Positions 6,243 through 30,986 of a stretch of DNA of 64,000 nt are shown here, in pieces. This DNA is from Saccharopolyspora erythraea NRRL 2338 (GTDB lineage Bacteria > Actinomycetota > Actinomycetes > Mycobacteriales > Pseudonocardiaceae): positions 7,057,584-7,121,583 of the forward strand of contig NC_009142.1 in assembly GCF_000062885.1 (NCBI RefSeq). The letters are read 5' to 3'. A program made the position numbers and the translations under genes. Below the pieces are notes generated by a model that searched no databases, was not told the DNA's origin, and saw only the letters and a list, made by a program, of their open reading frames with translations. Each line of letters begins with the position of its first letter. Position 1 is the stretch's first letter.

Positions 6243-6329
6243 CGCGGCCGCGCCGACGCCGTGACGGCGCCGGCGCGGCTGTTCGCGCGCGGGACCGGAG
6301 CGAGGAGTCTTCTCGGAGCTTCGGCCGTT

Positions 6330-6490: not shown

Positions 6491-6493
6491 AGG

Positions 6494-8226: not shown

Positions 8227-8270
8227 GGTTGGCACCTCCTGGCACCGACCATGCGCCCGGCGCGGACGGC

Positions 8271-8302
8271 TTGACAAACCTTGTTGCCATTTCCGCAAAT
8301 GG
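8271..8302. promoter_or_regulatory. Divergent promoter with operator-like palindrome
   Basis: The 80-bp gap between the oxidoreductase and the regulator holds TTGACA at 8271-8276 (a -35 candidate towards the regulator) and the perfect palindrome CCATTT-CCGC-AAATGG at 8287-8302. The palindrome lies just before the regulator start. It is a good candidate for autoregulation by the XRE protein and control of the divergent pair (inference). Confidence 0.5.
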
Positions 8303-8306
8303 AGGG

Positions 8307-16021: not shown

Positions 16022-16160
16022 GGTTCTCATCCCGTCGACCTGGCGCCAGCCCGATCAGACCGGGTCAAGGGGGCCCAAAGATGCCAACCGCAGCTTGCCT
16101 CGAAAAATGGCCCCCTTGACCCGGTCTGATAGCCCTCGTGGAGGTCGCCGGGATGAGAAC
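16022..16160. repeat. Long nested inverted repeat (about 139 nt)
   Basis: Downstream of the sugar transporter. Outer arms GGTTCTCATCCCG (16022-16034) and CGGGATGAGAACC (16148-16160) are perfect complements. Inner 22-nt arms at 16054-16075 and 16109-16130, around CCGGGTCAAGGGGGCC, are also perfect complements with a 33-nt loop. GACCT/AGGTC pair between them. It could be a bidirectional terminator, but the nested symmetry suggests a mobile palindromic repeat. Confidence 0.7.
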
Positions 16161-16420: not shown

Positions 16421-16470
16421 GGTCACCCCTACCCGGGAAGGTGATCCTCGCGCGCCACCGCACTATTGGA

Positions 16471-16483
16471 AATGAATGTCATT
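16471..16483 (+). promoter_or_regulatory. Possible Zur-type box upstream of the acetyltransferase
   Basis: AATGA-ATG-TCATT is a perfect 5-3-5 inverted repeat in an A/T island within very GC-rich DNA, 50 nt before the start codon. It resembles the AATGA-N3-TCATT core of actinobacterial zinc-uptake regulator (Zur) boxes. The assignment is by eye. Confidence 0.4.
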
Positions 16484-16532: not shown

Positions 16533-17084
16533 ATGCGGCACCACCTGGAACACCGCCACGGCGACTACGTCCTGCGCGCCGCGCGTCCCGAGGACGTGAC
16601 GGGCGCGCGGAAGGTCATGCTCGACACCTTCTACCTGGAGTTCGGGCACGGCTACCACGCCGAGTGGCACGCCGACGTCGTCGACATCGAGGGTGCTTAC
16701 CTCGGCAACCCGCGGCACGCGCTGTTCGTCGCGGTCCTCGACGGACAGGTCACCGCCACCACCGCGATCCGCTCCCACGGTCCGAAGTGCCCGCCGCATC
16801 CGCAGTGGCTCGTCGACCGCTACCCGGCGGGCGAGACGGCCCAGCTGTTCCGCGTCTACGTCGACCGGGCGCACCGGCGGCACGGGCTCGCGCGGGCGCT
16901 GGTGGCGATGGCCTGCGACTTCGTCGCCGACACCGCCGGCTACTCGGCGATCTACCTGCACACGAATCCCGCCGTCGAGGGCGCCGAGCCGTTCTGGCGC
17001 AGCGTGGCCAAGGAGATTTACGACGGGCGGGAGGATCCGCGGTACAGCCCCAGCGTCCACTTCGAAATCCCGCTGCCGCGCTGA
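16533..17084 (+). CDS. GNAT-family N-acetyltransferase
   Basis: 183 aa, start ATG 16533 preceded by GGAAGGA. The acetyl-CoA binding region is FRVYVDRAHRRHGLARALVAMACDF at about 108-132, with the R/Q-x-x-G-x-A type loop (RRHGLA). Strand 4 ends LFRVYV, and NPAVEGAEPFWRSV is the usual late helix. The N-terminal part is rich in His and acidic residues (HHLEHRHGDYVLRAARPEDV). The acceptor substrate is unknown. It converges on the ABC transporter unit, and a candidate zinc-type regulatory box precedes it. Confidence 0.85.
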   Translation: MRHHLEHRHGDYVLRAARPEDVTGARKVMLDTFYLEFGHGYHAEWHADVVDIEGAYLGNPRHALFVAVLDGQVTATTAIRSHGPKCPPHPQWLVDRYPAGETAQLFRVYVDRAHRRHGLARALVAMACDFVADTAGYSAIYLHTNPAVEGAEPFWRSVAKEIYDGREDPRYSPSVHFEIPLPR

Positions 17085-17228: not shown

Positions 17229-19115
17229 CTACCCTCGCGTCCGCCCCAATGTCGCTCCCGCCGCGTCTTCGCCCGCGCCCGCCGTGGCCGCCACGAGCGC
17301 GCGCGTCGCGGCGTGCTCCGGCGACGTGAGCACCGCCGCCGCCGCGCCCTGCTCGACGATCCGCCCCTGGTCGATCACCGCCACGCGTCCGGCCAGGTGC
17401 GCGACCACACCGAAGTCGTGCGTGATCAGCAGCAGGGCGCAGCCCGCACCCTGCTGCAGCTCCGCCAGCAGCTCCACGATCCCGGCCTGGGTCGCGGTGT
17501 CCAGGCCCGAGGTGATCTCGTCGCAGATCAGCAGGTCCGGGCCGCTCAGCAGAGCCCGCACCAGCGCCGCCCGCTGCAACTCGCCGCCGGACAGCGCCGC
17601 GGGCCTGCGCCGGACCGTGCTTTCCGCGAGGCCGACACGCGCGAGCATCTCCAGCGCCTCCGCGTGCGCGCTCGGTCGTTGCACGCCCCGGAGCAGCTCC
17701 GCGGTGCGGGCCACCTGGTCGAGCACCGGCACGAACTCGTTGAACGACGCACGCGCGTCCTGGAAGACGTATTGGATGCGTGCGAGTTGTTCGCGCGTGC
17801 GCTTGCGCAGTCGTGACGGCAGGTCGACGCCGTCGAGCCGGATGTTCCCCGACCGCGCCGGATGCAGGCCGGCGATGCAACGCGCGAGCGTCGTCTTGCC
17901 GCTGCCGGAACGGCCGACGAGCGCGACGCGCTCGCCCTCCGCGATCTCCAGCGAGACGTTCTCCAACGTGGTCGTGCGCCGATGCCCGGCGTCGAGCCCG
18001 TGGACTCCGACCAGGGCCCGGCTCGCCTCTTCTCCTCCGCCGTCCTGCTCGCTCGGCTCCGCGCTGAGCTGGGATTCGACGAGTCGTTGCGTGTACTCGT
18101 GTTCCGGCGCTCCCAGCACCTGGCCTGCGCACCCGGACTCGACGATTCGCCCGTCGCGCATCACCAGCACCTGCTCGGCCAGCGAGCGGACGACGTCGAG
18201 GTCGTGGGTGAGCAGCAGCACCGCGATGCCCTGAGCGGTCAGGATGCGCAGTTCTTCGACGACCTGCGCGCGGGTGAGTGCGTCCTGGCCGGTGGTCGGC
18301 TCGTCGGCGACGACCACCCGGGGGCGGCAGACGAGAGCCTGCGCCAGCACGACGCGTTGCTGCTGGCCCCCGGAAAGCTGGTGCGGGTAGCGGCGGAGGA
18401 ACTGCTGCTCCGCGGGCAACTGCGCACGCCGCAACGCGTCGAGCACCCGCTCGCGCGCCGAGCGGCGACGCTCGGACCTCGTCCCGGCGCCTAGGTGGCG
18501 CCGCGCCATCTCCTCCAGCACCGGACCGATGCGGCGCACCGGGTTCAACGCCGACGACGGCTGCTGCGGGATGTACCCGACGACCGGCCGCCGACCAGCA
18601 CCGCCGCCGCGACCGCCGTTTCCGCCACCATGCCCGTGACGACCGCCGTCATCGCCGATCCCGCCACTGCGACCGCCGAAAACCCCGTCGTCCCCGCCAG
18701 GAACGCCGTCAGCGGCGGCCAGCCCGTCAAGTCCGCCGCCAGCAGGTCCGCCGTTTCCACCGCCATTTCCGCCAAGACCGCCGTCGTCGGCCGCCACCGA
18801 CACGACGCCGCCGACGGCCGCGCCGGGCGGGTGTTCGCCGAGGAGCGCGAGGCCGGTCGTCGTCTTGCCGCTTCCCGACTCACCGACCAGCGCCGCGACC
18901 TCGCCTGCCCGCAGGGTGAAGGTCACGCCGTCGACGAGCCGATCCTCGCCCAGCGACACCGTCAGGCCGTCGACCTCCACCACCACGGCCCGCGCCCCGC
19001 CGACCGCGCCCGGTTCACCACTTCCGCCGCGCCCCGCGCCTGGTCCGCCTCTTCCACCACGTCCATCGCCTCCGCCACGGCCCGCGCCATCGCCGGAAAC
19101 CGATTCCTGCGTCAC
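17229..19115 (-). CDS. Double ABC ATPase, Opp/Nik peptide type, with Gly-rich insertion
   Basis: 628 aa, two fused nucleotide-binding domains. NBD1 has Walker A GESGSGKTT (about 78-86), Q-loop YIPQQPSSALNP, signature LSGGQQQRV, Walker B VVVADEPTTG and switch LLTHD. NBD2 has GRSGSGKTT, YVFQDARASFN, LSGGELQRAAL, LLICDEITSGLD and LITHD. All motifs are intact, so both sites should bind ATP. Odd features are a Gly-rich N-terminal tail (7-40) and a Gly/Asp-rich insertion of about 65 residues (110-175, DNA 18591-18788) containing HGHGGG between Walker A and Q-loop. GTG 19115 overlaps the permease stop. It powers the adjacent importer. Confidence 0.9.
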   Translation of the reverse strand: MTQESVSGDGAGRGGGDGRGGRGGPGAGRGGSGEPGAVGGARAVVVEVDGLTVSLGEDRLVDGVTFTLRAGEVAALVGESGSGKTTTGLALLGEHPPGAAVGGVVSVAADDGGLGGNGGGNGGPAGGGLDGLAAADGVPGGDDGVFGGRSGGIGDDGGRHGHGGGNGGRGGGAGRRPVVGYIPQQPSSALNPVRRIGPVLEEMARRHLGAGTRSERRRSARERVLDALRRAQLPAEQQFLRRYPHQLSGGQQQRVVLAQALVCRPRVVVADEPTTGQDALTRAQVVEELRILTAQGIAVLLLTHDLDVVRSLAEQVLVMRDGRIVESGCAGQVLGAPEHEYTQRLVESQLSAEPSEQDGGGEEASRALVGVHGLDAGHRRTTTLENVSLEIAEGERVALVGRSGSGKTTLARCIAGLHPARSGNIRLDGVDLPSRLRKRTREQLARIQYVFQDARASFNEFVPVLDQVARTAELLRGVQRPSAHAEALEMLARVGLAESTVRRRPAALSGGELQRAALVRALLSGPDLLICDEITSGLDTATQAGIVELLAELQQGAGCALLLITHDFGVVAHLAGRVAVIDQGRIVEQGAAAAVLTSPEHAATRALVAATAGAGEDAAGATLGRTRG

Positions 19116-20011
19116 CCGCGCACCTCCGTACGGCCGCGCCACCACTGGTCGAACACGAGGTTCACGCCCACCGAGAGCGCGATGATCAGCATCGCCGGGA
19201 GGGCGACCGCCCACGGCTGGATGAACAGCCCCGTCCGGTTGCGGTCCACCATCGCCGCCCAGTCGCTCGCCTGCGGCGACACCCCGACGCCCAGGAAGCT
19301 CGCGGACGCCACCAGGTAGATCGCGCCGGTGAACCGGGTGCCGAAGTCCGCGGCGAGGGTCCGCGCCATGGCCCTGGCCACGTAGCCGATGGCGATGCGC
19401 GCCCAGCTCTCCCCCTGCATCCGCATGGCCTCCACCGACGGTCGCGCCGACAGCGAGAGCGCGGAGGCGCGTGCGATGCGGATGACGTCAGGCAGGTTGA
19501 TCAGCACCACGATGCCGATCAGCACCCACAGCACGTTGGGTGCGATCGACGCGAGCAACAGCAGCATCAGCATCGAGGGGATCGCGAGCACCACGTCCAG
19601 CGGCCGCATCACGACCTCGTCGAGCAGCCGGCTCCTGGTCATCCCGGCCAGCAGGCCGATCGGCACGGCCAGCGCGTACGTCGCGGCGGTCGCGACCGCT
19701 GCCACGAGCACGACCGACCGGCCGCCGAGCAGCACCTCGTTCCAGACGTCGCGGCCGACGAAGTCCGTCCCGAACAGGTGCCCGCCACCGAGGGTGAAAG
19801 CGGCGTCCTTGGACAGGTCACCGGAGGCGAACAGCGGCCCGAACAACGCCAGCAGCAAAGGAATCCCGAGCAGGACGCCCCCGACGACGTACCGCCCGAC
19901 CGCACGCACGCCATTGCGCTCGACCGCCGCGGCGGGGCGTTCTTCCCTCCGCCGCGCGGACTTCGCCTCCACCGCCGCCACGGGATCCATCCCCTTCGGC
20001 TCTCCTCTCAT
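19112..20011 (-). CDS. ABC transporter permease, DppC/NikC type
   Basis: 299 aa, ATG 20011 overlapping the stop of the first permease (ATGA). A cytoplasmic N-terminal extension of about 40 residues is rich in Arg, Glu and Ala. The DppC-type extracytoplasmic segment contains GGGHLFGTDFVGRDVWNEVLLGGR. Five to six TM helices follow, with an EAA-type coupling region near EAMRMQGESWARIAIGYV. Together with the next permease it forms the channel of a peptide/nickel-type importer. All four transporter genes overlap by four bases, indicating tightly coupled expression. Confidence 0.9.
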   Translation of the reverse strand: MRGEPKGMDPVAAVEAKSARRREERPAAAVERNGVRAVGRYVVGGVLLGIPLLLALFGPLFASGDLSKDAAFTLGGGHLFGTDFVGRDVWNEVLLGGRSVVLVAAVATAATYALAVPIGLLAGMTRSRLLDEVVMRPLDVVLAIPSMLMLLLLASIAPNVLWVLIGIVVLINLPDVIRIARASALSLSARPSVEAMRMQGESWARIAIGYVARAMARTLAADFGTRFTGAIYLVASASFLGVGVSPQASDWAAMVDRNRTGLFIQPWAVALPAMLIIALSVGVNLVFDQWWRGRTEVRG

Positions 20012-20955
20012 CGCCCCGCCTCCGAAGCCGCCGGCGCCAGGATCCGGGCGACGACGTCGGCGGCGAGGTTCACCAGCACCGTCGTCGTCGCCAGCACCAC
20101 CGCGAGCCCCTGGATGACCGGCAGGTCGCGGGCCGAGACCGATTCCACCAGCGTCGTCCCCAGTCCCGGCACGACGAAGATCGCCTCGACCACGATCACG
20201 CCGCCGATCAGCCAGTCCGCGGTGCGCGCGAGCTGCTGCACGGCGGGGGCGACCGCGTTCGGCAGCGCGTGCGCGAGCTGCACGCGCACGGCCGAGAGTC
20301 CCGCCCGGCGCGCCTGCCGGACGTATCCGGAGCGCAGCGCCTCGATCATCCCCGCACGCACGAGCCTGCTCAGCGAGCAGATGGGCCGCAGCAGCAACAC
20401 CACCACCGGCAGGACCAGCACCGCGGGGCGGCTGAGCAGGTCGGCGCCCACCGCCGTCGGCGGGAACCACCGGAGCTGCACCGCGAACACGGTGACGAGC
20501 AGGATTCCCATCGCGAACTCGGGCACCGAGTACAGGCCGAGCGTGCCGGTCGTGATGGCGCGGTCCACGATCCGCCCCTCGCGGTTGGCCGCGAGCACGC
20601 CGAGCACCACGGACAGCGGGACGACCAAGGCCAGCGTCAGCCCTGCCAGCAGCAGCGTCGGGCCGACGGTCGAGCCGATGATGTCGGCGACCGCCGCCGG
20701 CCCCGCCAGCGACCGGCCGAAGTCGAAGTGCAGCGCGCCGACCAGCCAGTTCCACAGCCGCAGCCAGGCGGGTTCGTCGAGACCGAGCTGCGCGCGCAGC
20801 GTCGCGATGACCGCCGGGTCGGGGTTGTCGCCCGCGATGGTCACGGCCGCGTCGCCGGGCAACGCCTCCACCAGCACGAAGACGACCACCAGGACCACCA
20901 GCACCTGCAACGCGCCGAGCAGCGCGCGGCGCAGGACGTAGCGCGGGAGGCTCAC
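20008..20955 (-). CDS. ABC transporter permease, DppB/NikB type
   Basis: 315 aa from GTG 20955, overlapping the stop of the lipoprotein gene. The N-terminus RYVLRRALLGALQVLVVLVV and the following LPGDAAVTIAG and LGLDEPAWLRLWNWLVGALHFDFGRSL pattern are standard DppB family features. The EAA loop is EALRSGYVRQARRAGLSAVRVQLAHALPNA, which contacts the ATPase. Six TM helices are expected. Its substrate class (di/oligopeptide, nickel or metal chelate) is set by the lipoprotein. Confidence 0.9.
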   Translation of the reverse strand: MSLPRYVLRRALLGALQVLVVLVVVFVLVEALPGDAAVTIAGDNPDPAVIATLRAQLGLDEPAWLRLWNWLVGALHFDFGRSLAGPAAVADIIGSTVGPTLLLAGLTLALVVPLSVVLGVLAANREGRIVDRAITTGTLGLYSVPEFAMGILLVTVFAVQLRWFPPTAVGADLLSRPAVLVLPVVVLLLRPICSLSRLVRAGMIEALRSGYVRQARRAGLSAVRVQLAHALPNAVAPAVQQLARTADWLIGGVIVVEAIFVVPGLGTTLVESVSARDLPVIQGLAVVLATTTVLVNLAADVVARILAPAASEAGR

Positions 20956-22520
20956 CCCAGCCACACCTTGTCGAACCGCGCCCAGTCCAGGGTGTTGGCC
21001 GGAGCGCGGTCGTCCACCCCGCCGACGTTGGTCGCGGTCGCGACGAGCCAGTCCGACACGCCCCACCACACGAAGCCGCCCTCGTCGTGGAGCTGCCGCT
21101 GCATGTCCAGGTAGAGCTGCGCGCGCCGCGCGTTGTCCGGTGTGGACTGCGCCTGCTGGTAGAGCGCGTCGAACTCCGGGCGCTTCCACTTGGTGTTGTT
21201 GGTGGTCGAGGTGCTCAGCATCCGCTGCGAGATGTGGGACTCGATCGGCATCGCGCCGGATCGGTAGCTGGCGATGACGCCCTGCTTGGAGATGTCGGAC
21301 CAGTAGGTGTCCTTGTTGCCGAGCTTGACGTTGAGCGTCACGCCCGCCTTCTTCGCCTGGTCCGCGATGGCCAGCGCCGCCTCGCGCAGGCCGGGCGACA
21401 CGTCGGAGGTGTCGAGGTCCAGCGTCAGGTTCTCCACGCCCGCCTGCCGGAACAGCGCCCTGGCCCGGTCGAGGTCCTGGTGTCGCTGGGGCAGCGCGTC
21501 GGCGTAGTACTGGTAGCCCTTGCCGAACAGGTCGTTGGCGACCTCGCCCGAACCCTGCAGGACCGAGCGCACCAGCTCCTCGCGGTCGATGAGGTGGAAG
21601 AACGCCTGCCGGACCTCCAGCCGGTCGAACGGCGGGCGGTCGACCTTCATCGCCAGCGCGTGGAAGTTGCTCTTCGGCAGCCGGTGGATCGCCACCTGCC
21701 CGGTGCTCTCGTGGGTGCGCGCGGTGGTCGCGGTCAGGTCGTGGGCGTACTCGACCTGCCTGCCCAGCAGCGCGTTCACCCGGGCCGCCTCGTCGTTGCT
21801 CACGAGGATCTCCAGCTCGTCCAGGTAAGGCGCACCGTCCCAGTAGTCCGGGTTGCGGGTGGCCAGGAACGACCTGCCCGGTTCGAAGGAGGCGAACCGG
21901 AAGGGTCCCGATCCGACGGGCCGGTCGAAGTTCTCGGCGCCCTCCGGAACGATGTATGCGCCGAGCGTGGACAGCGCGTTCGGGAACTCCGCGTACGGGC
22001 GCTTCAGCCGGAACTCCACGGTGCGGTCGTCCACCGCCCTGCTGCCCGGTAGATCGATGACCGACAGGCTCGCCTTCGCCCGGCGGGTGCTGTCCGGGCG
22101 AAGGATGCGCTCGTAGCTGTGCAGGACGTCGGCGGCGCGCACCGGGCGACCGTCGTGGAAGTTCGCCTGCCGCAACGTGATCCGCCAGGTGAGCAGGTCG
22201 GCGCTGGACTCCCAGCGCTCGGCCAGCCGGGGCTGCGGCGACATGTCCGAGCCGTAGTCGGCGAGCTTGTCGAACAGCGCCTTCGCCCGCGCGATCTCCG
22301 AGTAGAGGTCGGTCGCATGCGGGTCGAGCACCTCGTCGGCGCCGCCGCCCGGGAACGCGGCGCGCAGGCGCCCGCCGGGGCGCGCGGCGCCCGGGCCGGG
22401 GGCCGATCCCGCGCCGGCGCAGCCGGCGAGGGCGGCCGACGCGGCGGCAGCCGCGGTGAGGCCGAGGAAGCCGCGGCGGTGCAGGCGCGGCCGGTCGGCC
22501 GCGTTCTGGTCGGAAGGCAT
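20952..22520 (-). CDS. ABC transporter substrate-binding lipoprotein, OppA/NikA/CntA family
   Basis: 522 aa, ATG 22520. The N-terminus carries both a twin-arginine motif (RRGFLG, 15-20) and a lipobox LAGC with Cys34, so it is probably Tat-exported and lipid-anchored. The SBP_bac_5 fold is evident from LDPHATDLYSEIARAKALFD, PRLAERWESSADLLTWRITLRQ, HDGRPVRAADVLHSY, PVGSGPFRFASF, VNALLGRQVEYAHDL and VRQAFFHLIDREELV. This superfamily includes peptide, nickel-chelate and staphylopine receptors. It is first in the transporter unit and has a Fur-family-like box 119-139 nt upstream. I infer that it captures the metal-loaded product of the neighbouring genes. Confidence 0.85.
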   Translation of the reverse strand: MPSDQNAADRPRLHRRGFLGLTAAAAASAALAGCAGAGSAPGPGAARPGGRLRAAFPGGGADEVLDPHATDLYSEIARAKALFDKLADYGSDMSPQPRLAERWESSADLLTWRITLRQANFHDGRPVRAADVLHSYERILRPDSTRRAKASLSVIDLPGSRAVDDRTVEFRLKRPYAEFPNALSTLGAYIVPEGAENFDRPVGSGPFRFASFEPGRSFLATRNPDYWDGAPYLDELEILVSNDEAARVNALLGRQVEYAHDLTATTARTHESTGQVAIHRLPKSNFHALAMKVDRPPFDRLEVRQAFFHLIDREELVRSVLQGSGEVANDLFGKGYQYYADALPQRHQDLDRARALFRQAGVENLTLDLDTSDVSPGLREAALAIADQAKKAGVTLNVKLGNKDTYWSDISKQGVIASYRSGAMPIESHISQRMLSTSTTNNTKWKRPEFDALYQQAQSTPDNARRAQLYLDMQRQLHDEGGFVWWGVSDWLVATATNVGGVDDRAPANTLDWARFDKVWLG

Positions 22521-22638
22521 GGGGATTTCCCTTCGGGACGGTGGAACCAGGACGTGGACGCGGGTCGACGGCGGGATTTCGCCGGAAGCGGGACGACGTC
22601 GTCACCGGAGGACGCGGCGGCAGGTTCGCACAGACTAA

Positions 22639-22659
22639 CGAAAACGATAATTCTTTTCG
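22639..22659 (-). promoter_or_regulatory. Fur/Zur-family-like box upstream of the importer
   Basis: CGAAAA-N9-TTTTCG is a 21-bp inverted repeat in an A/T-rich island. On the plus strand it contains GAAAACGATAAT, which aligns with GACAACGATTAT of the box at 29435-29449. It lies in the 305-bp gap between the methyltransferase and the lipoprotein gene. The rest of that gap shows only a hairpin. Confidence 0.55.
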
Positions 22660-22774
22660 ACAGTTCGGGTCAAGGTGCCCGGCAACCGGCGTTCAGCCGC
22701 CGGAAACCAGGTCCGCAACTGTCCGAGACACAGGCGCCGGTACCGAAGTCGTGGCCTGCCTCGGTGCGATTGGA

Positions 22775-22799
22775 CCGCGGTCCCGCGGCGAGACCGCGG
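22775..22799 (-). terminator. Possible hairpin after the methyltransferase
   Basis: CCGCGGTC (22775-22782) pairs with GACCGCGG (22792-22799) just downstream of the methyltransferase stop. No T-run follows. It may separate the biosynthetic unit from the importer unit. Confidence 0.4.
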
Positions 22800-22825
22800 A
22801 GTTCGGAGCAGGCACCATGCGGCGA

Positions 22826-23635
22826 CTACACCGCTCCACCTGCGCCGCAGGCCCGCGCGACGAAGTGCAGCCGGTCTCCCGCCAACGCCTCCGACAGCGG
22901 AGCATCGGCGTGCCAGGGCGAGTCGGTGCGCGGACCCGGCTCGTCGAACACCGCCAGCACCTCGAAACCGGCACGCTCCAGGTAGGAGCGCAGCTCCAGC
23001 GGGAACAGCAGGCGCCACGCCGAGCGCTGGTCGAGCGGTTCCGGGCAGCCCGGCCAGTCCCAGATCCGCCTGCGCCGCAGCAGTTGCGCCGCGTGGTCGA
23101 TCCAGAGCGTGGTGCGCGATCGATATCCGACGCCGTCCCACTCCACCGTCCGCTCGCGGACGCCGTCGAGTAGCTCGGTGTTGCCGAGGAAGAACGCGCC
23201 GTTGCGCATCTCCGCGACCAGCAGTCCGCGTTGGACGAGGTGCGCTCGGCAGAGCTGGAGGAAGCCGTCGAGGTCCTCGTTGGTGTGGCAGTAGAGCAGC
23301 GCGCTGTCCAGGCACGTGATGACGTCGAACCGCCGCTCCAGCGCGAAGGAACGCATGTCGGCGACCACGAACTCCCCGTCGGGGCACTGCCGCCGCGCGT
23401 ACTCGACCATCCGCTCCGACGAGTCGAGTCCGGCGACGTCGCGGCCGCGCTGGCTCCAGTACCGGGCGTCGCGCCCAGTACCGCACCCGATGTCGAGCAG
23501 CGAGCCCGCGTCCGGCCCGCCGAAGCGGCGGACGACGTCGTCGACGAAGCGTGCCGCGACGTGGCCCGGGTCGGGGAACTGCTGCTCGTAGAGCGCCGGG
23601 TTGTCGGTCAGGAAGTTGCTGCTGGCGACCTGCAC
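22826..23635 (-). CDS. Class I SAM methyltransferase (metallophore unit)
   Basis: 269 aa from GTG 23635, which has AGGAG about 12 nt upstream; a GTG at 23674 is the alternative. It overlaps the MFS gene by 28 bp. Motif I LLDIGCGTGRDARYWSQRG, acidic VAGLDSSERMVEYARR, VVADMRSFAL and motif IV FDVITCLDSALLYCHTNEDL are all present. A beta-rich C-terminal part ends RLHFVARACG. Enzymes with this core N- or O-methylate small molecules. As last gene of the biosynthetic unit it is a candidate tailoring enzyme for the exported product. Confidence 0.85.
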   Translation of the reverse strand: MQVASSNFLTDNPALYEQQFPDPGHVAARFVDDVVRRFGGPDAGSLLDIGCGTGRDARYWSQRGRDVAGLDSSERMVEYARRQCPDGEFVVADMRSFALERRFDVITCLDSALLYCHTNEDLDGFLQLCRAHLVQRGLLVAEMRNGAFFLGNTELLDGVRERTVEWDGVGYRSRTTLWIDHAAQLLRRRRIWDWPGCPEPLDQRSAWRLLFPLELRSYLERAGFEVLAVFDEPGPRTDSPWHADAPLSEALAGDRLHFVARACGAGGAV

Positions 23636-24942
23636 TCCGGCTCGCTGCTCCTGGTCTTGGACTCGTTGTGGCACCCGTCTGCTCCTGTTCTGCTTCCCCT
23701 GCACCGCCCGGGGCCGTCCGGGTCGAGAATCCCCTTGCGTTCCAGCAAGATCACCGCCGCCGCCGAGGCCAGTCCGATCAGCACGCACAGCGCCGACGGC
23801 AGCCACGGCGCCGCGTCCATCGCCCAGCCGATGAGCGCGTTGCCCCCCGCGGCGACCAGTCCCGACGCCAGGTAGAACACGCCGAAGTAGGTGCCCGACA
23901 GCGTTTCCCGGCCGAACGACGGGATCAGCTCGTTGACGAAGGGTTGCGCGAGCATCAGTCCGACCGCCAGGCCGAACGCCGTGACCAGGACCGGCAGCAG
24001 CCGCAGCGCCGTCGCCCCCGCTCCGTCACCGGCGTTGGGGGCCGGAACCAGCACCGCGGCCAGCGCGGTGACGGCGAAGGCCGCGCCCATGACCGCCATT
24101 CCCACGGCGATCGAACGGCCGCGGGACCACCGCCGCTGGTACCGCTGGGTGATGCGCACTTGCAGCGCGAGCGTGGCGGCCGTCGAGACCAGGAAGATCA
24201 CCGCCACCGGCGCGGACGAGCCGGTGAGCCGCGCCGCTTCCATCGGCAGCACCAGGTAGAGCTGGTTCTGCAGGGCGAACATGCCGGTCAGCGCCGCGGT
24301 GAAGGCGAAGAAGCGCCGGTCGCCGAGCACCGCGCGCCAGTCGCCCAGCACCGATGTCGCCGGCCGCTCGACCCGGCGCACGGGCAGCACCACGACCTGC
24401 GCCACCGTCAGCCCGGCGAAGATCAGCGCCGCGACCACCGCCGAGAGCTGGAAACCGACCGCGACCAGCGCGCTGCCGAGCAGCGGGCCCAGCAGCGCAC
24501 CGGTGTTGGCGAAGATGTTGAACAGCGAGAACGCCTCCGCCCGCCGGTCGCCCGCCTCCTGCGCGAGGTAGGCGCGCACCGCGGGGTTGAACAGCGCTCC
24601 GGCGAGGCCGCTCAGCACCGACGCGAGCACCAGCACCGGGACCGACGGCCCGAACGCGAAGAGTCCGAAGCCGACCGCGCGCAATGCGCAACCGGCCACG
24701 ATGACACCTCTGGCACCGAGGCGGTCGGCGGCCGACCCGCCGAGCAGGAACAGGCCCTGCTGGCTGAGGTTGCGCACGCCCAGGACGATGCCGACGACGG
24801 CCGCCGACATCCCGAGGTCGTGTCCGAGGTAGCCGGACAGGTACGGGATGAGCAGGTAGAAGCCGGTGTTCACACCGAGCTGGTTGACCAGCAGGACCTG
24901 CACGGCGACCGGGAAGCTGCGGATCAGGCGCCAGGTCCTCAC
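23608..24942 (-). CDS. MFS exporter (metallophore unit)
   Basis: 444 aa from GTG 24942, overlapping the epimerase stop (GTGA) and preceded by GGGGGAG. About 11-12 TM helices are apparent. The drug/siderophore-exporter type is suggested by the NQLGVNTGFYLLIPYLSGYL start, the loop motif GGSAADRLGARGVIVAG between TM2 and TM3 and AFSLFNIFANTGALLGPLLG in TM5. The C-terminal 50 residues are soluble and Arg/Ser-rich. In staphylopine and several siderophore systems an MFS protein at this position secretes the product. By context it should export the compound made by its operon partners. Confidence 0.85.
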   Translation of the reverse strand: MRTWRLIRSFPVAVQVLLVNQLGVNTGFYLLIPYLSGYLGHDLGMSAAVVGIVLGVRNLSQQGLFLLGGSAADRLGARGVIVAGCALRAVGFGLFAFGPSVPVLVLASVLSGLAGALFNPAVRAYLAQEAGDRRAEAFSLFNIFANTGALLGPLLGSALVAVGFQLSAVVAALIFAGLTVAQVVVLPVRRVERPATSVLGDWRAVLGDRRFFAFTAALTGMFALQNQLYLVLPMEAARLTGSSAPVAVIFLVSTAATLALQVRITQRYQRRWSRGRSIAVGMAVMGAAFAVTALAAVLVPAPNAGDGAGATALRLLPVLVTAFGLAVGLMLAQPFVNELIPSFGRETLSGTYFGVFYLASGLVAAGGNALIGWAMDAAPWLPSALCVLIGLASAAAVILLERKGILDPDGPGRCRGSRTGADGCHNESKTRSSEPECRSPAATS

Positions 24943-25976
24943 GTCTCCCCCGCCCGCCGCACGCATAAGCCCGCCTGGCCGACCACGCGCAGGACGCCGT
25001 CCTCGCCGCCGATCCCCGTCCACGGGTCGTGCGCGAGCAGCAGGTGGCCGTCGAGGTCGACCCAGCGGGCCAGGCCCGCGAGGTGCACCGCGGGCGCGAT
25101 GCCGAGGGAGCTGGCGACCAGGCACCCGAGCATCACCTCGACACCGCGGTCGCGCGCGGCTTCGACGATCCGCATCGCGGCACGGATGCCGCCGCACTTG
25201 GCCAGCTTCACGTTGACGCCCCGCACCGAGTCGCCCAGCGCGCGCACTTCGTCGAGCCCGGCGGCGTCCTCGTCGGCGATGACCGGGACCGGTGACCGCC
25301 GCGCCACCTCGGCGAGCAGGTGCGGTGTCCCGGCCGGGATCGGCTGCTCGACCGCTTCGACGCCGTGCCGGTGAGCCGCTTCGAGCATCCGGACCGCCTG
25401 CTCCGGTTGCCAGGCGCCGTTGGGGTCCAGCAGCAGGCGCGCGCCGGGTGCCGCCCGCCGGATCGCGGCGATCCTTTCCAGCTCCGGCTGCTCTTCGGCA
25501 CCGACCTTGACCTTGATCAGCTCGAACCCGCGCGCTGCCAGCGATTCCGCCGTCTCGGCCGACCGCTCCAGCGAGGTGATGCCGATCGTGCGGGCGGTCG
25601 GGACGCGTTCGGGACGCGGCGCGCCGACCAGTTCGTGCACCGCGACACCCCGGAGCTTCGCGACGAGATCGTGCAGTGCGGCGTCGACCGCGGCCAGCAC
25701 TCCGGGCGCGTCCGCCGCGAGCGGACCGTCCGGCAACGACGCGAGAAGTCGTTCCGGATCGGAGGATCCCTCGATGACGTCCCGATTCGACTCGAGCAGC
25801 GCTTCGATGCGTGCCACGTCGAGGTCGTAGAAGACGCTCGTGACGACCTCGCCGAAGCCCACGACGCCGTCGTGCTCGATCTCCAGGGTCACCGCGCCCC
25901 GCTCGTGCATGACCGAGCGCGAAATGCGGAACGGCTCGCGGAGACGCAAATCCCCAGCGGTCCAACGGAACTTCAC
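24939..25976 (-). CDS. Enolase-superfamily enzyme, dipeptide epimerase-like
   Basis: 345 aa from GTG 25976. Capping domain 1-120, then the (beta/alpha)7 barrel. Catalytic residues are complete: KVKVG with Lys155/Lys157, metal ligands Asp184 (LLLDPNGAW), Glu210 (EAVEQPIP) and Asp235 (VIADED), and Lys257 (VNVKLAKCGG) as the opposite acid/base. The DxD in RWVDLDG (307-309) corresponds to the motif that binds the alpha-ammonium of the dipeptide in L-Ala-D/L-Glu epimerases. It therefore probably inverts a stereocentre in a dipeptide or N-acyl amino acid. It overlaps both neighbours by four bases. N-succinylamino-acid racemase is the main alternative. Confidence 0.8.
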   Translation of the reverse strand: MKFRWTAGDLRLREPFRISRSVMHERGAVTLEIEHDGVVGFGEVVTSVFYDLDVARIEALLESNRDVIEGSSDPERLLASLPDGPLAADAPGVLAAVDAALHDLVAKLRGVAVHELVGAPRPERVPTARTIGITSLERSAETAESLAARGFELIKVKVGAEEQPELERIAAIRRAAPGARLLLDPNGAWQPEQAVRMLEAAHRHGVEAVEQPIPAGTPHLLAEVARRSPVPVIADEDAAGLDEVRALGDSVRGVNVKLAKCGGIRAAMRIVEAARDRGVEVMLGCLVASSLGIAPAVHLAGLARWVDLDGHLLLAHDPWTGIGGEDGVLRVVGQAGLCVRRAGET

Positions 25977-27058
25977 GCCGGCACCTCCACGAGGGACAGC
26001 GGGTCGAGCACCGCGCGGCACCGCGCCCAGCCCTCGACCTCGTCCAGCCGCGGGTGCGCGATCTCCACGGGCCGGGTGGCGACCGGGGTGTCGATGAGCC
26101 CGCGCGCCCGGCAGAAGTCGTCGTCGAAGATCGTGTGCAGGTAGCGGTGCGGGCCGTCCGGGAAGACCGTGACCACCCGCGCGCCCGCCTCGACCCGCGC
26201 CACCCACGCCGAGACCAGCGCGACCGCGCCGGTGCTCCAGCCGCCGCTGACGAACGAGCGCTCGGCCAGCGTCCGGCACGCCTGCACCGCCTCTGCCGGC
26301 CCCACCCAGTGCACCTCGTCGAACTGCGCGTAGTCGACGTTGCGCGGGTGGATGCTGCTGCCGAGCCCGCGCATCACCCTGGGCCGCGCGGGCTGGCCGA
26401 AGATCGTCGACCCGACGGTGTCCACACCGACCAGCCGGATCGACGGCCAGTGCCTGCGCAGCGCCCGGATCGTGCCCGCGCTGTGCCCGCCGGAACCGAC
26501 GCTGCACACCAGCACGTCGGCCGCGCCGAGCTGGTGGACGATCTCCTCGCCGAGCGCGGCGTAGCCGGCCGGGTTGTCGGGGTTGTTGTACTGGTCCGGC
26601 CAGTACGCGCCGGGCAGCTCGCGGCACAGCTCACGCACCCGGTCGAGCCGCGCCTGCTGCCAGCCGCCCACCGGGTGCGGGCGGTCGACGACCTCGATGC
26701 GGGCGCCGTGGGCCCGCAGCAGCGCCCGCATGCCCGCTTCCAGCTCCCGGTCGACGACCAGCACCACCGGGTGGCCCAGCGCCTGCCCGGCGAAGGCGAG
26801 CCCGAGCCCGAGCGTCCCGCTGGTCGACTCCACCACCGGCGCGCCCGGCCGCAGCTCCGCCCGGTGGCGGGCGCCGGCCAGCATCGACAGCGCGGCCCGC
26901 GCCTTCATCCCGCCGACGCTGACGCACTCCAGCTTCGCCCAGAAGCCGGGGTGCGGCTGCGGGAGCGGCGTGCTTATGCGCGCCAGCGGGGTGTCCGGCA
27001 GCAGCGCGAGGAGGTCGGGGTTGCCGGTCGGCACCCGCTCCTCGATCCGAACAGTCAA
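25973..27058 (-). CDS. Cysteine-synthase-like PLP enzyme (fold type II)
   Basis: 361 aa. TTG 27058 is chosen because GGAAGGA lies six bases upstream. Cysteine-synthase features are AKLECVSVGGMKARAAL with PLP lysine Lys52, VESTSGTLGLGLAFAG (the asparagine loop, altered from SSGNTG), YWPDQYNNPDNPAGY (like QFxNPANP) and the phosphate loop CSVGSGGHSAGT near 175-186. The altered loops argue against housekeeping cysteine synthesis. Relatives such as SbnA make 2,3-diaminopropionate-type or other beta-substituted alanines from O-phosphoserine or O-acetylserine. I infer that it supplies an unusual amino acid to the ATP-grasp ligase. A 190-bp gap precedes it. Confidence 0.8.
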   Translation of the reverse strand: MTVRIEERVPTGNPDLLALLPDTPLARISTPLPQPHPGFWAKLECVSVGGMKARAALSMLAGARHRAELRPGAPVVESTSGTLGLGLAFAGQALGHPVVLVVDRELEAGMRALLRAHGARIEVVDRPHPVGGWQQARLDRVRELCRELPGAYWPDQYNNPDNPAGYAALGEEIVHQLGAADVLVCSVGSGGHSAGTIRALRRHWPSIRLVGVDTVGSTIFGQPARPRVMRGLGSSIHPRNVDYAQFDEVHWVGPAEAVQACRTLAERSFVSGGWSTGAVALVSAWVARVEAGARVVTVFPDGPHRYLHTIFDDDFCRARGLIDTPVATRPVEIAHPRLDEVEGWARCRAVLDPLSLVEVPA

Positions 27059-27196
27059 CAGGTGTCCTTCCCTCACGAGGTGGTTGCGCGCGGCTGCGCC
27101 GAGGCAGGCGCGCGAGTGCGCCGAGGCACCGGTGGAAGTGCCGGCCAGGGGCTTTCGCAAGCGGCGTCAGCAGCTCGCGGTGCTGTCTTTGGTCTG

Positions 27197-27246
27197 GAAG
27201 CGGCGCAGCCGCTCGGCCCGACCCCGCGACCGGCACCGCCACGCAA
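27197..27246. repeat. Dispersed repeat, copy 2 (short form)
   Basis: GAAGCGGCGCAGCCG (27197-27211) and ACCGGCACCGCCACGCAA (27229-27246) keep the same spacing as at 6330-6377. The long inner hairpin of copy 1 is missing. It ends against the stop codon of the DUF364-type gene, inside an otherwise tightly packed operon. Confidence 0.6.
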
Positions 27247-27248
27247 AA

Positions 27249-28133
27249 TCACGTCCGAAACATCCCCTGGACCGAGTAGCGGTAGATCGCGGTCGGCCCG
27301 CCGTCGAGCCAGAAGAACGGGTAGGGCTCGGCGGAGACCGCGGTGACGCCGGAGCCGAGGAACCACGGCAGCACGGCGCTGGCCGTCTGCGCGAACAGCA
27401 CGAACGGCTTGCCCGTCGCCCGCGCGTGCTCCAGCAGCGGCTGGAAGGTGCCGTTGCCGACGACCATGCCCGAGGCGAGCACCGCGTCGCAGCCGTCGAG
27501 CGCGGCGTGGGCGTCGGTGGCGATCGGCTCGCCCCATTCCGTCACGCCGCCCTTGCGGTCGCACGGCACGTATCCGCAGCCGCGCTCCCGCAACTGCTGG
27601 AGCAGGGAGTTGACCACGCCTACGACGAGCACGCGCTCCGGCTTCCCGGGGACGAGGTCGACGACGGCCCTGGCCCGCTGCACGGACTTGTGCAGGGAGT
27701 TCCCGCGCCCGATCACTACCTCTTCGGCCCGCCGCGCGTGCGGCCCGGTCCACATCAGGAACGCGTCGAGCACCGCCGTGCGCACCGCCGCGCTCGGGTG
27801 GTGCAGCAGTTCCCGGACCGGGGCGCCGACGCAGTCGAGCACGACCTCCTCGGCGAGCTCGCCCGGCTCCACCGCGCACGATCCCACGGCGTCCTCGACG
27901 CGCAGGCTCAGCACGTGGTTGCGGTACGAGCACTCGCGCGACGCGTGCCGAACCCCTTGCTGGGTGAGGAATCCGAGGCTGGCGGTGGCGTCGGCGATCG
28001 CGGGCGAGATCCGTCCATCCAGGACCCGGCCGACGAGGTCGTCGAGCGATTCGACGCGCGGAGTTGCAGGCTCGCCCGGTCCACTCCCCGATTCGGCGTT
28101 CGCGACGGCATTCGCTCCGAGTGCGGTGTTCAC
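27249..28133 (-). CDS. DUF4213/DUF364-type protein (metallophore unit)
   Basis: 294 aa from GTG 28133, overlapping the ATP-grasp stop. The C-terminal Rossmann-like half has ERVLVVGVVNSLLQQLRERG, YVPCDRKGG, DAVLASGMVVGNGTFQPLL and KPFVLFAQTASAVLPWF. This is the NGT/GPSAP-like layout of DUF364, a family described as a putative heavy-metal chelation domain. The N-terminal half resembles the DUF4213 enolase-N-like region. Several Cys (RECSYR, GSCAVEP, LDCVG, RGCGYVPCD) could bind metal. Its biochemical role is unknown; co-transcription suggests a step in synthesis or metal handling of the product. Confidence 0.65.
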   Translation of the reverse strand: MNTALGANAVANAESGSGPGEPATPRVESLDDLVGRVLDGRISPAIADATASLGFLTQQGVRHASRECSYRNHVLSLRVEDAVGSCAVEPGELAEEVVLDCVGAPVRELLHHPSAAVRTAVLDAFLMWTGPHARRAEEVVIGRGNSLHKSVQRARAVVDLVPGKPERVLVVGVVNSLLQQLRERGCGYVPCDRKGGVTEWGEPIATDAHAALDGCDAVLASGMVVGNGTFQPLLEHARATGKPFVLFAQTASAVLPWFLGSGVTAVSAEPYPFFWLDGGPTAIYRYSVQGMFRT

Positions 28134-29395
28134 GCGGGCACTTCCTCGGCGTAGCGGACGTCCAGGCCGCCGACCAGCGCCTCCGCCTTCGCCCTGGCCC
28201 GCCCCGGGTCCGGCGCGGTCACCATCACGTGGCCCAGGTAGTTGTTGTTGCTGGTGGCGGGTCCCGAGCGGTGGCCGGAGGACTTGAACTTCCAGTCCAC
28301 GACGCCGTCAGCCCCGTCGAGATCCTGGACGCCGACGACCTCGCCGATCACGCCTTCCTTCGGCGGCAGCAGGAACGAGATCGCCGCGCTGCCCGCCCCG
28401 GTCTCCGCCCGTTCCAGCGCAGGTTCCTCGCCGAGCGCCACCTGCGCGTAGGCGGCGGCGAGGTCGATGCCGGTCACCCGCCGCACCAACTCGGTGATCT
28501 GGTTGCCCGCAGGCCTGGGGTTGACCTCGACGATCCGCGGACCGTCCGGGGTGAGCTTGAGCTCCGTGTGCCCGACGACGTTGTCCAGGCCGAGCGCCTC
28601 GACCGCCGCGACGGCGGTCTCGACGACCGCTCGCTCGGTGTCGAGGTCCAGCGCCGCCGGGAACATGTGCCCGGTCTCGACGAACCACGGCGCCCCGGCG
28701 ATGCTCTTGTCCGTCACGCCGATGACGGACGTCCGGCCCCGGGACGTCACCGTCTCCACGCTCACCTCCGGGCCGGTGAGCAGTTCTTCCAGCAGCACCA
28801 GCGGATTGCGCCGCTGCCCGCGGGCGTTGACCGGGAACTGCCGCAGGGCGGCGTATGCGTCGCGCAGTTCCACGTCGTCGGTGACCTTGCGCACGAACAT
28901 CCCGGCGCACAGGTCGACGGGCTTGAGCACGAGCGGATAGCCCAGCGCGGCGGCGGCTTCCTCCAGGCCGGCGGCGCTCTCGGCGAGCGCGAACGCCGGA
29001 CCGGGCACACCCGCTTCGCGCAGCGCGCGGCGGGTGAGGTCCTTGCTGCACGCGCGTTCCACCGCCTCCGGCGGCGCGCCGGGCAGCCCCAGCCGGGCCG
29101 CGATGTGCGCGACCGCGGGGAGGTAGTAGTCGCACGAGGTCAGCACCCCGTCGAACCCGAGCACGGGCTGCAACCGCGCGACGTGCTCGGCCAGCGCCGC
29201 GACGTCGTTGGTCTCGGTGGTGAGCAGGTTCTCCGCCCCCAGCAGCGGGTGCGCCCCCGGCACCGGACTGGATCGCAGGTAGTGGTGCAGGTCTCGGGTG
29301 ATGAAGCTGAACCGGTGCCCGGATTCCCGGATGCCCCGGGGAAGCAGTGCGCTCATCGCGCCTACCCAGCTCTCGACCATCAGCAGGTGGCCCAC
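28130..29395 (-). CDS. ATP-grasp carboxylate-amine ligase
   Basis: 421 aa. GTG 29395 is chosen because GAGGGAG directly precedes it; an in-frame GTG at 29422 has no ribosome site. A pre-ATP-grasp domain (1-115) is followed by the ATP-binding core: CSKDLTRRALREAGVPGP, GYPLVLKPVDLCAGMFV (ATP lysine) and LVLLEELLTGPEVSVE. Metal ligands lie in HTELKLTPDGPRIVEVNPRPAGNQI. A C-terminal lid of about 110 residues follows. Such enzymes join an acyl phosphate to an amine, forming dipeptide-like bonds (BacD, LysX and carnosine-synthase type). It is first in the biosynthetic unit, with a Fur-family-like box 40-54 nt upstream. I infer that it makes the backbone of a small peptide metallophore or antibiotic. 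Confidence 0.85.
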   Translation of the reverse strand: MGHLLMVESWVGAMSALLPRGIRESGHRFSFITRDLHHYLRSSPVPGAHPLLGAENLLTTETNDVAALAEHVARLQPVLGFDGVLTSCDYYLPAVAHIAARLGLPGAPPEAVERACSKDLTRRALREAGVPGPAFALAESAAGLEEAAAALGYPLVLKPVDLCAGMFVRKVTDDVELRDAYAALRQFPVNARGQRRNPLVLLEELLTGPEVSVETVTSRGRTSVIGVTDKSIAGAPWFVETGHMFPAALDLDTERAVVETAVAAVEALGLDNVVGHTELKLTPDGPRIVEVNPRPAGNQITELVRRVTGIDLAAAYAQVALGEEPALERAETGAGSAAISFLLPPKEGVIGEVVGVQDLDGADGVVDWKFKSSGHRSGPATSNNNYLGHVMVTAPDPGRARAKAEALVGGLDVRYAEEVPA

Positions 29396-29434
29396 GGAGC
29401 TCCCTCGTTCATGGTTGTTCACGACGATCGGCGA

Positions 29435-29449
29435 TGATAATCGTTGTCA
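29435..29449 (-). promoter_or_regulatory. Fur/Zur-family-like box before the biosynthetic unit
   Basis: TGATAATCGTTGTCA is a near-palindrome (TGAyAA...TTrTCA) in an A/T island between the divergent ATP-grasp and peptidase genes. Its complement matches GAxAACGATxAT of the box at 22639-22659. It is typical in shape of Fur-superfamily sites. In actinobacteria zinc (Zur) is likelier than iron, which is usually IdeR/DtxR-controlled. Confidence 0.55.
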
Positions 29450-29495: not shown

Positions 29496-30986
29496 GTGAT
29501 CGCCTTGCGTCTCTGCCTCGCCACCGCACTCGCGACGTCCCTGCTCGCCGCCGGTCCGCCTGCCGCGGCTGAACCGCACTTCGGCCCCTGTCCACCGGAC
29601 GTCGGGACCAGCGACGACGTCCCCACCGCACCCCCTGTCGAATGCGCGACCATCGACGTCCCGCTCGACTACGACGACCCGGGCGGGCGAACACTGCCGG
29701 TGGCGATCTCCCGCATCCGCGCCACCGGCACGCCGCGGGAGTACCGGGGCGCCCTGCTGGTGAACCCGGGCGGGCCGGGCGGCTCCGGACTCGGCTACGC
29801 GGCGGAGAAGCGGGCCAAGTTGCCTGAGCCGGTCCAGCGCTCCTTCGACGTCATCGGCTTCGACCCGCGCGGAGTGGGGCGCAGCGCCCCCGTCGACTGC
29901 GGTCCCGCGGGCGGGCTCTTCCAGCACCCCGCGCCCGATCCGGTGCCCACCGACCCGGCGAGCGAACAGGCCTACCTCGGGCAGTTGCGGCACCTGGCCG
30001 GCGACTGCGTGCGCCACGTCGGCGACGTCCTGCCGCACGTCAGCACCGCGAACACCGCACGGGACATGGACGTCATCCGCGAGGCGTTGGGGAAGCGGGA
30101 GCTGAACTTCCTCGGCGTTTCGTACGGCACGTACCTGGGCGCCGCCTACGCGGCGCAGTTCCCCCGGCGGACCGGCCGGATGGTGCTCGACAGCGTCGTG
30201 AGCCCCGACGACTGGCACGACTTCGACGTCCAGCAGGGATTCGCGATGGTCGAGCAGCGGGACGTGCTGTTCCGCTGGGTCGCCGCGCACCCGTCGCTCG
30301 GACTTGGCGCGACAGCGGAAGAAGTGCGGGCGAACTACACCGAGGCGCGTGCCCGCCTCAGCGCGCATCCGGCGGCGGGCGGTGTCGGGCCCGCGGAGTT
30401 CGACCGGTTCGTGTACCGGACTCTCTCCCGCACCGAGCGCTGGGAGCCGTTCGCCCACGCGCTGAGCGCTTTGCTCGCCTCCGGCGACGCATCCGGGTTC
30501 GAACCCGCCGAACCGGAAGGCGATACGGAGTCCCGCAACTACGAAGCGGCGCTGCGGACCGTCAAGTGCGCCGACAGCGCCCGGCCGAGGGCGGAGGAGG
30601 TCGTCCACGACGTCCGCGCTCTCCGCGCGGCGGATCCTCTGCCAGTCCTGACCGGACTCGAAGCGACGACGTGCGCTTTCTGGCCCGCGCCAAGGGAGAA
30701 AGCCCGGCTCGGCAGCCCCGCGATGCCACCGGTCCTGCTCACCCAGGCCGCGCACGACCCCACCACACCGCTGGCCGGCGCCCGGCGGATGCAGCGGGTG
30801 CTCCCCGGTTCGCGGATGGTCACGCTGGACGACGGCTACTCCCACGGCGTGTTCGCCAGCCAGCGCAACGCCTGCGTCGACGACACGGCCGCGGCCTACC
30901 TGGTGAGCGGACGGCTGCCGCACGAGGACGTCGAGTGCGCGGGCGGCGGGCTACCGCGGGTTCGCGCGGTGACCTCCCAGCCATAG
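29496..30986 (+). CDS. Secreted S33-type tripeptidyl aminopeptidase-like hydrolase
   Basis: 496 aa from GTG 29496. Signal peptide of about 25 residues (LRLCLATALATSLLAAGPPAAA). The alpha/beta hydrolase core has the oxyanion region LVNPGGPGGSGLGYA, FDVIGFDPRGVGRS, nucleophile elbow NFLGVSYGTYLGAAYA, acid Asp in QAAHDPTTPLAGA, His in GYSHGVFAS, and the SlpD/SlpE-type C-terminal domain. Such actinobacterial enzymes trim tripeptides or dipeptides from extracellular peptides. It is divergent from the ATP-grasp gene and shares its 100-bp promoter region with the Fur-like box, so it may share regulation. Several Cys may form disulfides. Confidence 0.85.
   Translation: MIALRLCLATALATSLLAAGPPAAAEPHFGPCPPDVGTSDDVPTAPPVECATIDVPLDYDDPGGRTLPVAISRIRATGTPREYRGALLVNPGGPGGSGLGYAAEKRAKLPEPVQRSFDVIGFDPRGVGRSAPVDCGPAGGLFQHPAPDPVPTDPASEQAYLGQLRHLAGDCVRHVGDVLPHVSTANTARDMDVIREALGKRELNFLGVSYGTYLGAAYAAQFPRRTGRMVLDSVVSPDDWHDFDVQQGFAMVEQRDVLFRWVAAHPSLGLGATAEEVRANYTEARARLSAHPAAGGVGPAEFDRFVYRTLSRTERWEPFAHALSALLASGDASGFEPAEPEGDTESRNYEAALRTVKCADSARPRAEEVVHDVRALRAADPLPVLTGLEATTCAFWPAPREKARLGSPAMPPVLLTQAAHDPTTPLAGARRMQRVLPGSRMVTLDDGYSHGVFASQRNACVDDTAAAYLVSGRLPHEDVECAGGGLPRVRAVTSQP

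Follow-up and report, generated by a model that had tools for sequence, protein, structure and literature searches.

A probable Zur-controlled zinc-metallophore locus in Saccharopolyspora erythraea and its cobalamin-riboswitch-linked sister group

The region described here is a 64 kb stretch of the Saccharopolyspora erythraea NRRL 2338 chromosome (the window; positions 7,057,584 to 7,121,583 of NC_009142.1), in which open reading frames (ORFs) and domain searches define a run of ten minus-strand genes spanning 17229-29422 and arranged in two units. Unit 1 encodes an ATP-grasp ligase, a DUF364 protein, a pyridoxal-5'-phosphate (PLP) enzyme, an epimerase-like enzyme, a transporter of the major facilitator superfamily (MFS) and a methyltransferase, while unit 2 encodes an importer of the ATP-binding cassette (ABC) type. 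An earlier note, made from the letters of this DNA alone, had proposed a metal-regulated small-peptide metallophore system here, and all ten genes are present with the domains it named. The GNAT gene on the plus strand was not part of its ten-gene set. The features are as follows.

28130..29395, minus strand: ATP-grasp L-amino-acid ligase (ATP-grasp_4 and LAL_C2; start GTG at 29395, or 29422)
27249..28133, minus strand: DUF364 enzyme, core gene of the family (PF04016, 34.4 bits against a cut-off of 23)
25973..27058, minus strand: SbnA-like PLP enzyme, core gene (PALP; start uncertain, 27160, 27076, 27058 or 27034)
24939..25976, minus strand: dipeptide-epimerase-like enzyme of the enolase superfamily (MR_MLE)
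23608..24942, minus strand: MFS protein, presumed to be an exporter (MFS_1)
22826..23635, minus strand: S-adenosylmethionine-dependent methyltransferase (Methyltransf_25)
20952..22520, minus strand: Nik/Opp-type substrate-binding lipoprotein (SBP_bac_5; NikA the best NCBIfam model, below its cut-off)
20008..20955, minus strand: ABC permease of NikB/OppB type (BPD_transp_1; nickel ABC transporter permease model best, below its cut-off)
19112..20011, minus strand: ABC permease of NikC/OppC type (BPD_transp_1; nickel transporter permease model best, below its cut-off)
17229..19115, minus strand: fused double ABC ATPase (more than one ABC_tran stretch; NikD model cut-off passed, 335.3 against 318.7)
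16533..17084, plus strand: GNAT acetyltransferase (Acetyltransf_1; coordinates of the longer ORF)
29435..29449, no strand: Zur-type palindrome TGATAATCGTTGTCA at the unit 1 promoter, possibly serving the divergent hydrolase as well (top score in the window, 26.9)
16467..16481, no strand: Zur-type palindrome upstream of the GNAT gene (second-best score, 19.0)
22645..22659, no strand: Zur-type palindrome upstream of unit 2 (third-best score, 13.1)
29496..30986, plus strand: TAP-like hydrolase, divergent, a possible accessory gene (Abhydrolase_1 and TAP-like)

The two units are separated by 305 bases. An available start codon permits a 4-base overlap at six of the eight within-unit junctions; the MFS and methyltransferase genes overlap by about 28 bases, and the DUF364 and PALP genes are separated by a gap of at least 88 bases, depending on the start chosen. 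The description of nearly all genes as overlapping by about four bases was thus slightly generous. The same gene order recurs in relatives from several families, and the arrangement is therefore not due to chance. The end coordinate given in the earlier note, 29449, is the last base of the palindrome at 29435-29449. An Rfam search of the window returned nothing at gathering level. An inverted repeat with perfect 22-base arms (16054-16075 and 16109-16130) lies between a sugar-transporter-like gene and the GNAT promoter.

The regulatory sites were scored with a matrix built from the sites 5' of the ATP-grasp gene in named relatives, which include congeners but not the genome of the window. The three promoters of the locus take the three highest scores in the window, followed by a next-best score of 11.5. 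A whole-genome search of the single contig of 8,212,805 bases located two exact sites for the pattern TGANAAYSRTTNTCA in 8.2 Mb, one of them at 29435. Allowing up to two mismatches gave 78 sites per strand, compared with 16 for a reversed control. Genes of zinc homeostasis are found among the neighbours of such sites. An L28/L33 ribosomal protein gene pair at 846897-847285 has upstream sites scoring 19.1 and 16.9, and a znuA gene at 504951-505949 has one scoring 19.1, while the top scores within 1.5 kb of the second L33, L28 and znuA loci were 2.6, 1.3 and 9.5. Sites on only one of two znuA and L28/L33 copies would be the pattern expected of zinc-controlled duplicates. An ArsP_1 permease gene with DUF1980, Fur-family and ArsR genes in its neighbourhood has a further site 38 bases ahead of it. 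Because of this company, namely one znuA, one L28/L33 pair and a nearby Fur-family gene, the promoter motif was assigned to Zur. No zinc gene was recognised, from translated starts read by eye, at the other one-mismatch sites viewed (L039-L044), and some one-mismatch sites are therefore chance occurrences or of unknown role. Metal control of the locus, as the earlier note had supposed, is strongly supported at the level of sequence, and points to zinc.

An iron siderophore, with Fur-type boxes that answer iron and not zinc, is a quite improbable alternative. SbnA, to which the PLP enzyme is related, serves the iron siderophore staphyloferrin B, and a distant relative of the locus (L066, described below) uses import of the FecCD/Peripla_BP_2 type. 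Against iron, however, the motif precedes one copy only of znuA and of L28/L33 and adjoins a Fur-family gene, and the importer of the window is of the Nik/Opp type, which usually carries nickel, cobalt or zinc chelates.

The second exact TGANAAYSRTTNTCA site lies 48 bases before another Nik/Opp binding-protein gene, in a second locus of the same genome (L037, G000:C1:2914000-2926000, genes at 1714-8562). This locus has two Zur-type sites and comprises a GNAT gene (60% identical), two ATPases, an MFS gene, a NikA-like binding protein and permeases; neither DUF364 nor PALP was detected in the 12 kb fetched. It may import a chelator that is produced elsewhere. A partial DUF364-like match, 40% identical over 117 residues, is found at G000:C1:3439492-3439845, with no surrounding system recognised.

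Scanning a genome collection identified 311 relatives of the locus. The counts below rest on the best 80, the remaining 231 not having been seen, and the sample therefore leans to close kin; some of the contigs are short. The 80 named loci belong to actinomycetes of 13 genera. The ATP-grasp, DUF364 and PALP genes occur together in all 80, accompanied by the epimerase in 79, the MFS gene in 76, the binding protein in 74, the methyltransferase in 72 and the GNAT gene in 53. The importer and the biosynthetic genes are thus linked in relatives, and the lack of linkage that the earlier note had named as a refutation did not occur. A Zur-type pattern lies within 250 bases of the ATP-grasp start in 69 of the 79 loci with enough upstream sequence. 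Matrix scores of at least 10 precede this gene in 78 of the 79, a figure that is partly circular because the matrix was trained on 69 of these sites; of 1600 windows drawn at random from these loci, 39 score 10 or more, and some of those overlap true boxes. A Zur-type site precedes the GNAT gene in 12 of 49 relatives. In most relatives all the genes seem to depend on a single promoter.

It could be supposed that others make a chelator of the nicotianamine or opine kind and that the locus only imports it, its enzymes serving something else. L037, whose GNAT, importer and MFS genes have Zur-type sites but neither a DUF364 nor a PALP gene beside them, lends this some colour. In the window, however, the enzymes and the exporter form one gene run behind one Zur-type site, and the binding protein is linked to them in 74 of 80 loci, which makes pure import hardly credible.

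The TAP-like hydrolase at 29496-30986 diverges from unit 1 and has a Zur-type promoter region in common with it. It was found in 24 of the 80 relatives, in 23 of them on the strand opposite the ATP-grasp gene, and is possibly a zinc-starvation peptidase.

DUF364 matches were present in 33 of 298 genomes of the order, from which 34 loci were fetched and sorted into classes A (10 loci), B (4) and C (20); two further partial matches, one in the genome of the window and one in G165, are unclassified. Class A displays the gene order of the window, including the GNAT gene, with the exceptions that L054 has no methyltransferase match and that the GNAT gene of L062 is on the other strand. All ten class A loci carry a site upstream of the ATP-grasp gene, and in all ten the GNAT gene adjoins the system. 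The GNAT gene at 16533-17084 therefore counts as part of this system. In other families, represented by a sample of 394 genomes of the class, the 11 fetched matches fall into class A (8) or C (3). A DUF364 tree of 83 rows places class A (35 rows) and class C (23 rows) each in one clade, with class B (24 rows) beside A and forming a single group only if the long-branch L244 is counted in. Regulation and gene content track these groups.

Class B, seen only in the window's own family, has the order DUF364-PALP-MFS-binding protein-permeases-ATPase in the four loci of the order sample, all of which carry a cobalamin riboswitch upstream of, and on the same strand as, the DUF364 gene. A family-wide search covered 390 genomes, 82 of them with a match at 1e-60, and every one of its 24 best-scoring places, the four order-sample loci plus 20 more, belongs to class B; together they constitute the class B set. 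RF00174 matches all 24 at 85-103 bits, against a gathering score of 31.5, and none of the 24 gave a match for the ligase, the epimerase or the methyltransferase. L243, which ranks next, belongs to class A: it has an exact Zur-type site but no riboswitch. Scans of seven class A sources (the window, L062, L243, L245, L249, L251 and L252) and of the class C loci L254 and L255 detected no riboswitch. An importer of the window's type adjoins 14 of the 24 class B loci. A second match is present in nine of the 24 genomes, in each case at a class A locus whose Zur-type site scores at least 21.

Directly after the riboswitch, a nearly invariant GGGGTCGCGGAGCCCC-GGAGGAGG element is observed in all 24 loci (for example L060:9398-9531). 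Each of them also has an ORF of 19-38 amino acids, preceded by a conserved Shine-Dalgarno element. A ribosomally synthesised and post-translationally modified peptide was considered for this ORF and rejected, the peptides not being conserved except among close kin. Since they are mostly not conserved, the ORF looks like a leader ORF, which the riboswitch seems to control. The GNAT gene of class B is preceded by a TGCAC-N5-TTGCA-like repeat (L058:10790-10815, L060:9085-9110, L224 and others) that resembles a site of the nickel regulator Nur.

Because a cobalamin riboswitch is joined here to homologs of a zinc system, the class B sister most likely makes a cobalt metallophore. Cobalamin riboswitches also control vitamin B12 salvage and B12-independent isoenzymes, so that class B might instead salvage corrinoid parts or read B12 status for some other end; ten of the 24 loci, moreover, have no adjacent importer. 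Such a role is unlikely, although it deserves more weight than the other alternatives, given that the genes behind the riboswitch are related to a chelator system under zinc control, share its exporter and, in 14 of 24 loci, its type of importer, and include no corrinoid enzyme.

The 20 class C loci of the order sample, an outgroup to A and B, combine a DUF364 gene (38-43% identity) with a more distant PALP gene and an ABC ATPase, annotation being limited to L066 and L069. Pfam searches of L066 identified MFS, small methyltransferase, DUF364, GHMP kinase, PALP, Peripla_BP_2, ATPase and FecCD genes; in L069, FecCD and MFS genes were found, only those genes being scanned. Zur-type sites scoring at least 18 lie within 4.5 kb of the DUF364 gene in 21 of 23 class C loci, against 0 of 46 comparison stretches of similar length in class B loci. 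In L066:8919-12533 the DUF364, GHMP kinase, small methyltransferase and SbnA-like genes stand beside a FecCD-type importer and Zur-type sites. Class C of the L066 type is a third, uncharacterised system, in which the PLP enzyme may receive its phosphorylated substrate from the GHMP kinase.

Gene content marks DUF364 and the PLP enzyme as the shared two-enzyme core and the predicted defining chemistry of the wider family. SbnB, an ornithine-cyclodeaminase-like enzyme, is the partner of SbnA; no SbnB-like protein is encoded among the ten genes, the rest of the genome not having been searched for one. The closest solved structures to the PLP enzyme are those of SbnA and then CmnB, and it scores 252.7 bits with the SbnA equivalog model TIGR03945, below the cut-off of 349.95. 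According to the available text of PMC12414870, SbnA selects O-phosphoserine through Arg132, Tyr152 and Ser185. Lys86, Arg171 and Tyr191 of the PLP enzyme are invariant in 10 of 10 aligned rows, and the SbnA residues Arg132 and Tyr152 are conserved. The AlphaFold model of the DUF364 protein (pLDDT 84.8) is best matched in Foldseek by 3npg, itself a DUF364 protein, with a template modelling (TM) score of 0.54 by query; the other matches listed, mostly enolase-superfamily and PLP enzymes, have TM scores of at most 0.36 by query and gave no reaction. For another DUF364 protein, Dhaf4260, the available text of PMC2954201 describes an Enolase-N-like plus a Rossmann-like fold, for which its authors proposed an adenosyl-type pocket, a heavy-metal role from gene context, and flavin or pterin chemistry. 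Beyond what was described for Dhaf4260, the present analysis identifies a partner enzyme, an exporter, an importer and two distinct kinds of metal control.

The remaining enzymes appear to decorate this core. The ATP-grasp ligase is closest to the L-amino-acid ligases BL00235 and BacD among solved structures. The PDB entry nearest to the MR_MLE enzyme bears the name muconate cycloisomerase, and the entries that follow include L-Ala-D/L-Glu and dipeptide epimerases; the sequence of the enzyme contains what we take to be the KxK and acidic metal-ligand motifs. Because ligase, epimerase and methyltransferase are unmatched in all class B loci, they are an elaboration of one group, and the word dipeptide can describe only the elaborated zinc form. 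The epimerised, methylated dipeptide-type product of the earlier note could fit that form, but does not hold across the family. The kinship with BL00235 and BacD would also suit a bacilysin-like peptide antibiotic, made by an ATP-grasp dipeptide ligase, with MFS self-protection; the Opp transporter would then import some unrelated nutrient. Against it stand the Zur-type sites at each of the three promoters, a binding protein linked in 74 of 80 loci, and a sister group that lacks the ligase yet keeps the exporter, and the importer in 14 of 24, behind a B12 riboswitch. This most unlikely product was set aside because of that Zur-type control, linked importer and ligase-free sister.

Comparison with described systems reveals a familiar plan built from different enzymes. 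As in the staphylopine and pseudopaline (Cnt) systems, a few-enzyme logic of the aminopolycarboxylate type is combined with an exporter, zinc control and, in some, a Nik/Opp-type importer. The available text of PMC7438024 attributes Nik/Opp or FecCD importers to opine zincophores, with acetyl- or methyltransferases as accessories in some clusters. In contrast with Cnt, an SbnA-like enzyme and DUF364 replace CntL and CntM, and peptide ligase, epimerase and methyltransferase are present in the zinc form. The nicotianamine synthase-like CntL (PF03059), which opine zincophores require, had no match in the genome of the window, in line with the earlier note, which saw none at the locus; Methanosarcina acetivorans was matched among 14 control genomes; the opine dehydrogenase CntM (PF10100) had none among the ten genes, in the genome or likewise in the control genomes. 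Six NCBIfam models match the MFS protein, MdtH best and below its cut-off, and none is named CntE, the content of the library for CntE being unchecked. For the importer, nickel transporter models are best, and those for CntA, CntC, CntD and CntF match below their cut-offs. Resemblance to staphyloferrin B (SbnA-SbnB) and to diaminopropionate synthesis for capreomycin is confined to the PLP enzyme, nearest SbnA and CmnB, with Arg132 and Tyr152 conserved; it differs from the former in having DUF364, not SbnB, as partner and in falling below the NCBIfam SbnA cut-off. Coelibactin is the product of a nonribosomal peptide synthetase (NRPS), whereas domain searches found no NRPS domain among the ten genes. 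Zur-controlled metallophores known from the available text of PMC6103462 are coelibactin, ethylenediaminedisuccinate (EDDS) and pseudopaline. The locus shares predicted Zur control in an actinomycete host with two metallophores treated in the consulted parts of PMC6103462 and PMC9252823, [S,S]-EDDS from Amycolatopsis japonicum and coelibactin from Streptomyces coelicolor, the likeness to EDDS being drawn at the level of Zur control.

These data suggest, with good confidence, that the locus is a complete zinc-metallophore system under Zur, and its genes very probably make, export and retake a small zinc-binding molecule. The make-export-reimport logic of the earlier note holds, with an MFS exporter and a Nik/Opp importer present and the importer linked in relatives. 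Under zinc scarcity, Zur would be expected to leave all three promoters, those of unit 1, of unit 2 and of the GNAT gene. From O-phosphoserine and an amino-group nucleophile the SbnA-like enzyme would then form a beta-substituted alanine, a chelating unit of the aminopolycarboxylate type, and DUF364 would act on this product with a cofactor or substrate of adenosyl type. The ATP-grasp ligase may couple the DUF364 product to another amino acid, and the ligated product may be epimerised by the enolase-superfamily enzyme and methylated by the methyltransferase, in this presumed order of steps. The MFS protein would export the chelator, and the lipoprotein and Nik/Opp ABC transporter would recover its zinc complex. 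The GNAT enzyme might acetylate a coordinating amine inside the cell, freeing the metal.

Several observations weigh against this interpretation and its extension to class B. Ten of the 79 relatives fail the Zur-type pattern and one fails the matrix; the unit 2 site is weak (13.1), and such a site precedes the binding-protein gene in only 5 of 74 relatives. The position of SbnA Ser185 is Gly in 10 of 10 PALP rows, no proven activity for any DUF364 protein was found in the parts of the open-access literature covered, and the role given to GNAT is a guess. Among the 25 class B-type loci (the 24 and L244), three have a Zur-type score of at least 10 within 1.2 kb upstream (11.0, 12.1 and 12.1), and L244, with class B gene content, has neither riboswitch nor Zur-type site. 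The ten class B loci without an adjacent window-like importer include L228, which ends about 3 kb after the exporter. Even so, a zinc metallophore under Zur is, as a predicted system-level function, well supported.

Taken across the family, it is somewhat more likely than not that DUF364 and the SbnA-like enzyme constitute a two-enzyme generator of a new chelator class, retuned between zinc and cobalt by control and decoration. The zinc form would have Zur control with ligase, epimerase and methyltransferase added, and the cobalt form a cobalamin riboswitch and the core only. The open-access literature yielded no description of the gene cluster, which may have been described elsewhere, and no papers for cobaltophore, cobalophore or cobalt metallophore; we know of no earlier dedicated cobalt metallophore. 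If the cobalt reading is true, class B would make the first dedicated cobalt metallophore known to us, and its production would be shut down by the very vitamin that contains this metal. The scheme offers a testable function for the long-unassigned protein family DUF364, and would add a route to metallophores whose operon encodes neither a nicotianamine synthase nor an NRPS enzyme. Through the B12-controlled sister, the winning of scarce cobalt by soil bacteria becomes directly testable, and the nine genomes that carry paralogous systems under two metal controls would provide a natural experiment in metal selectivity.

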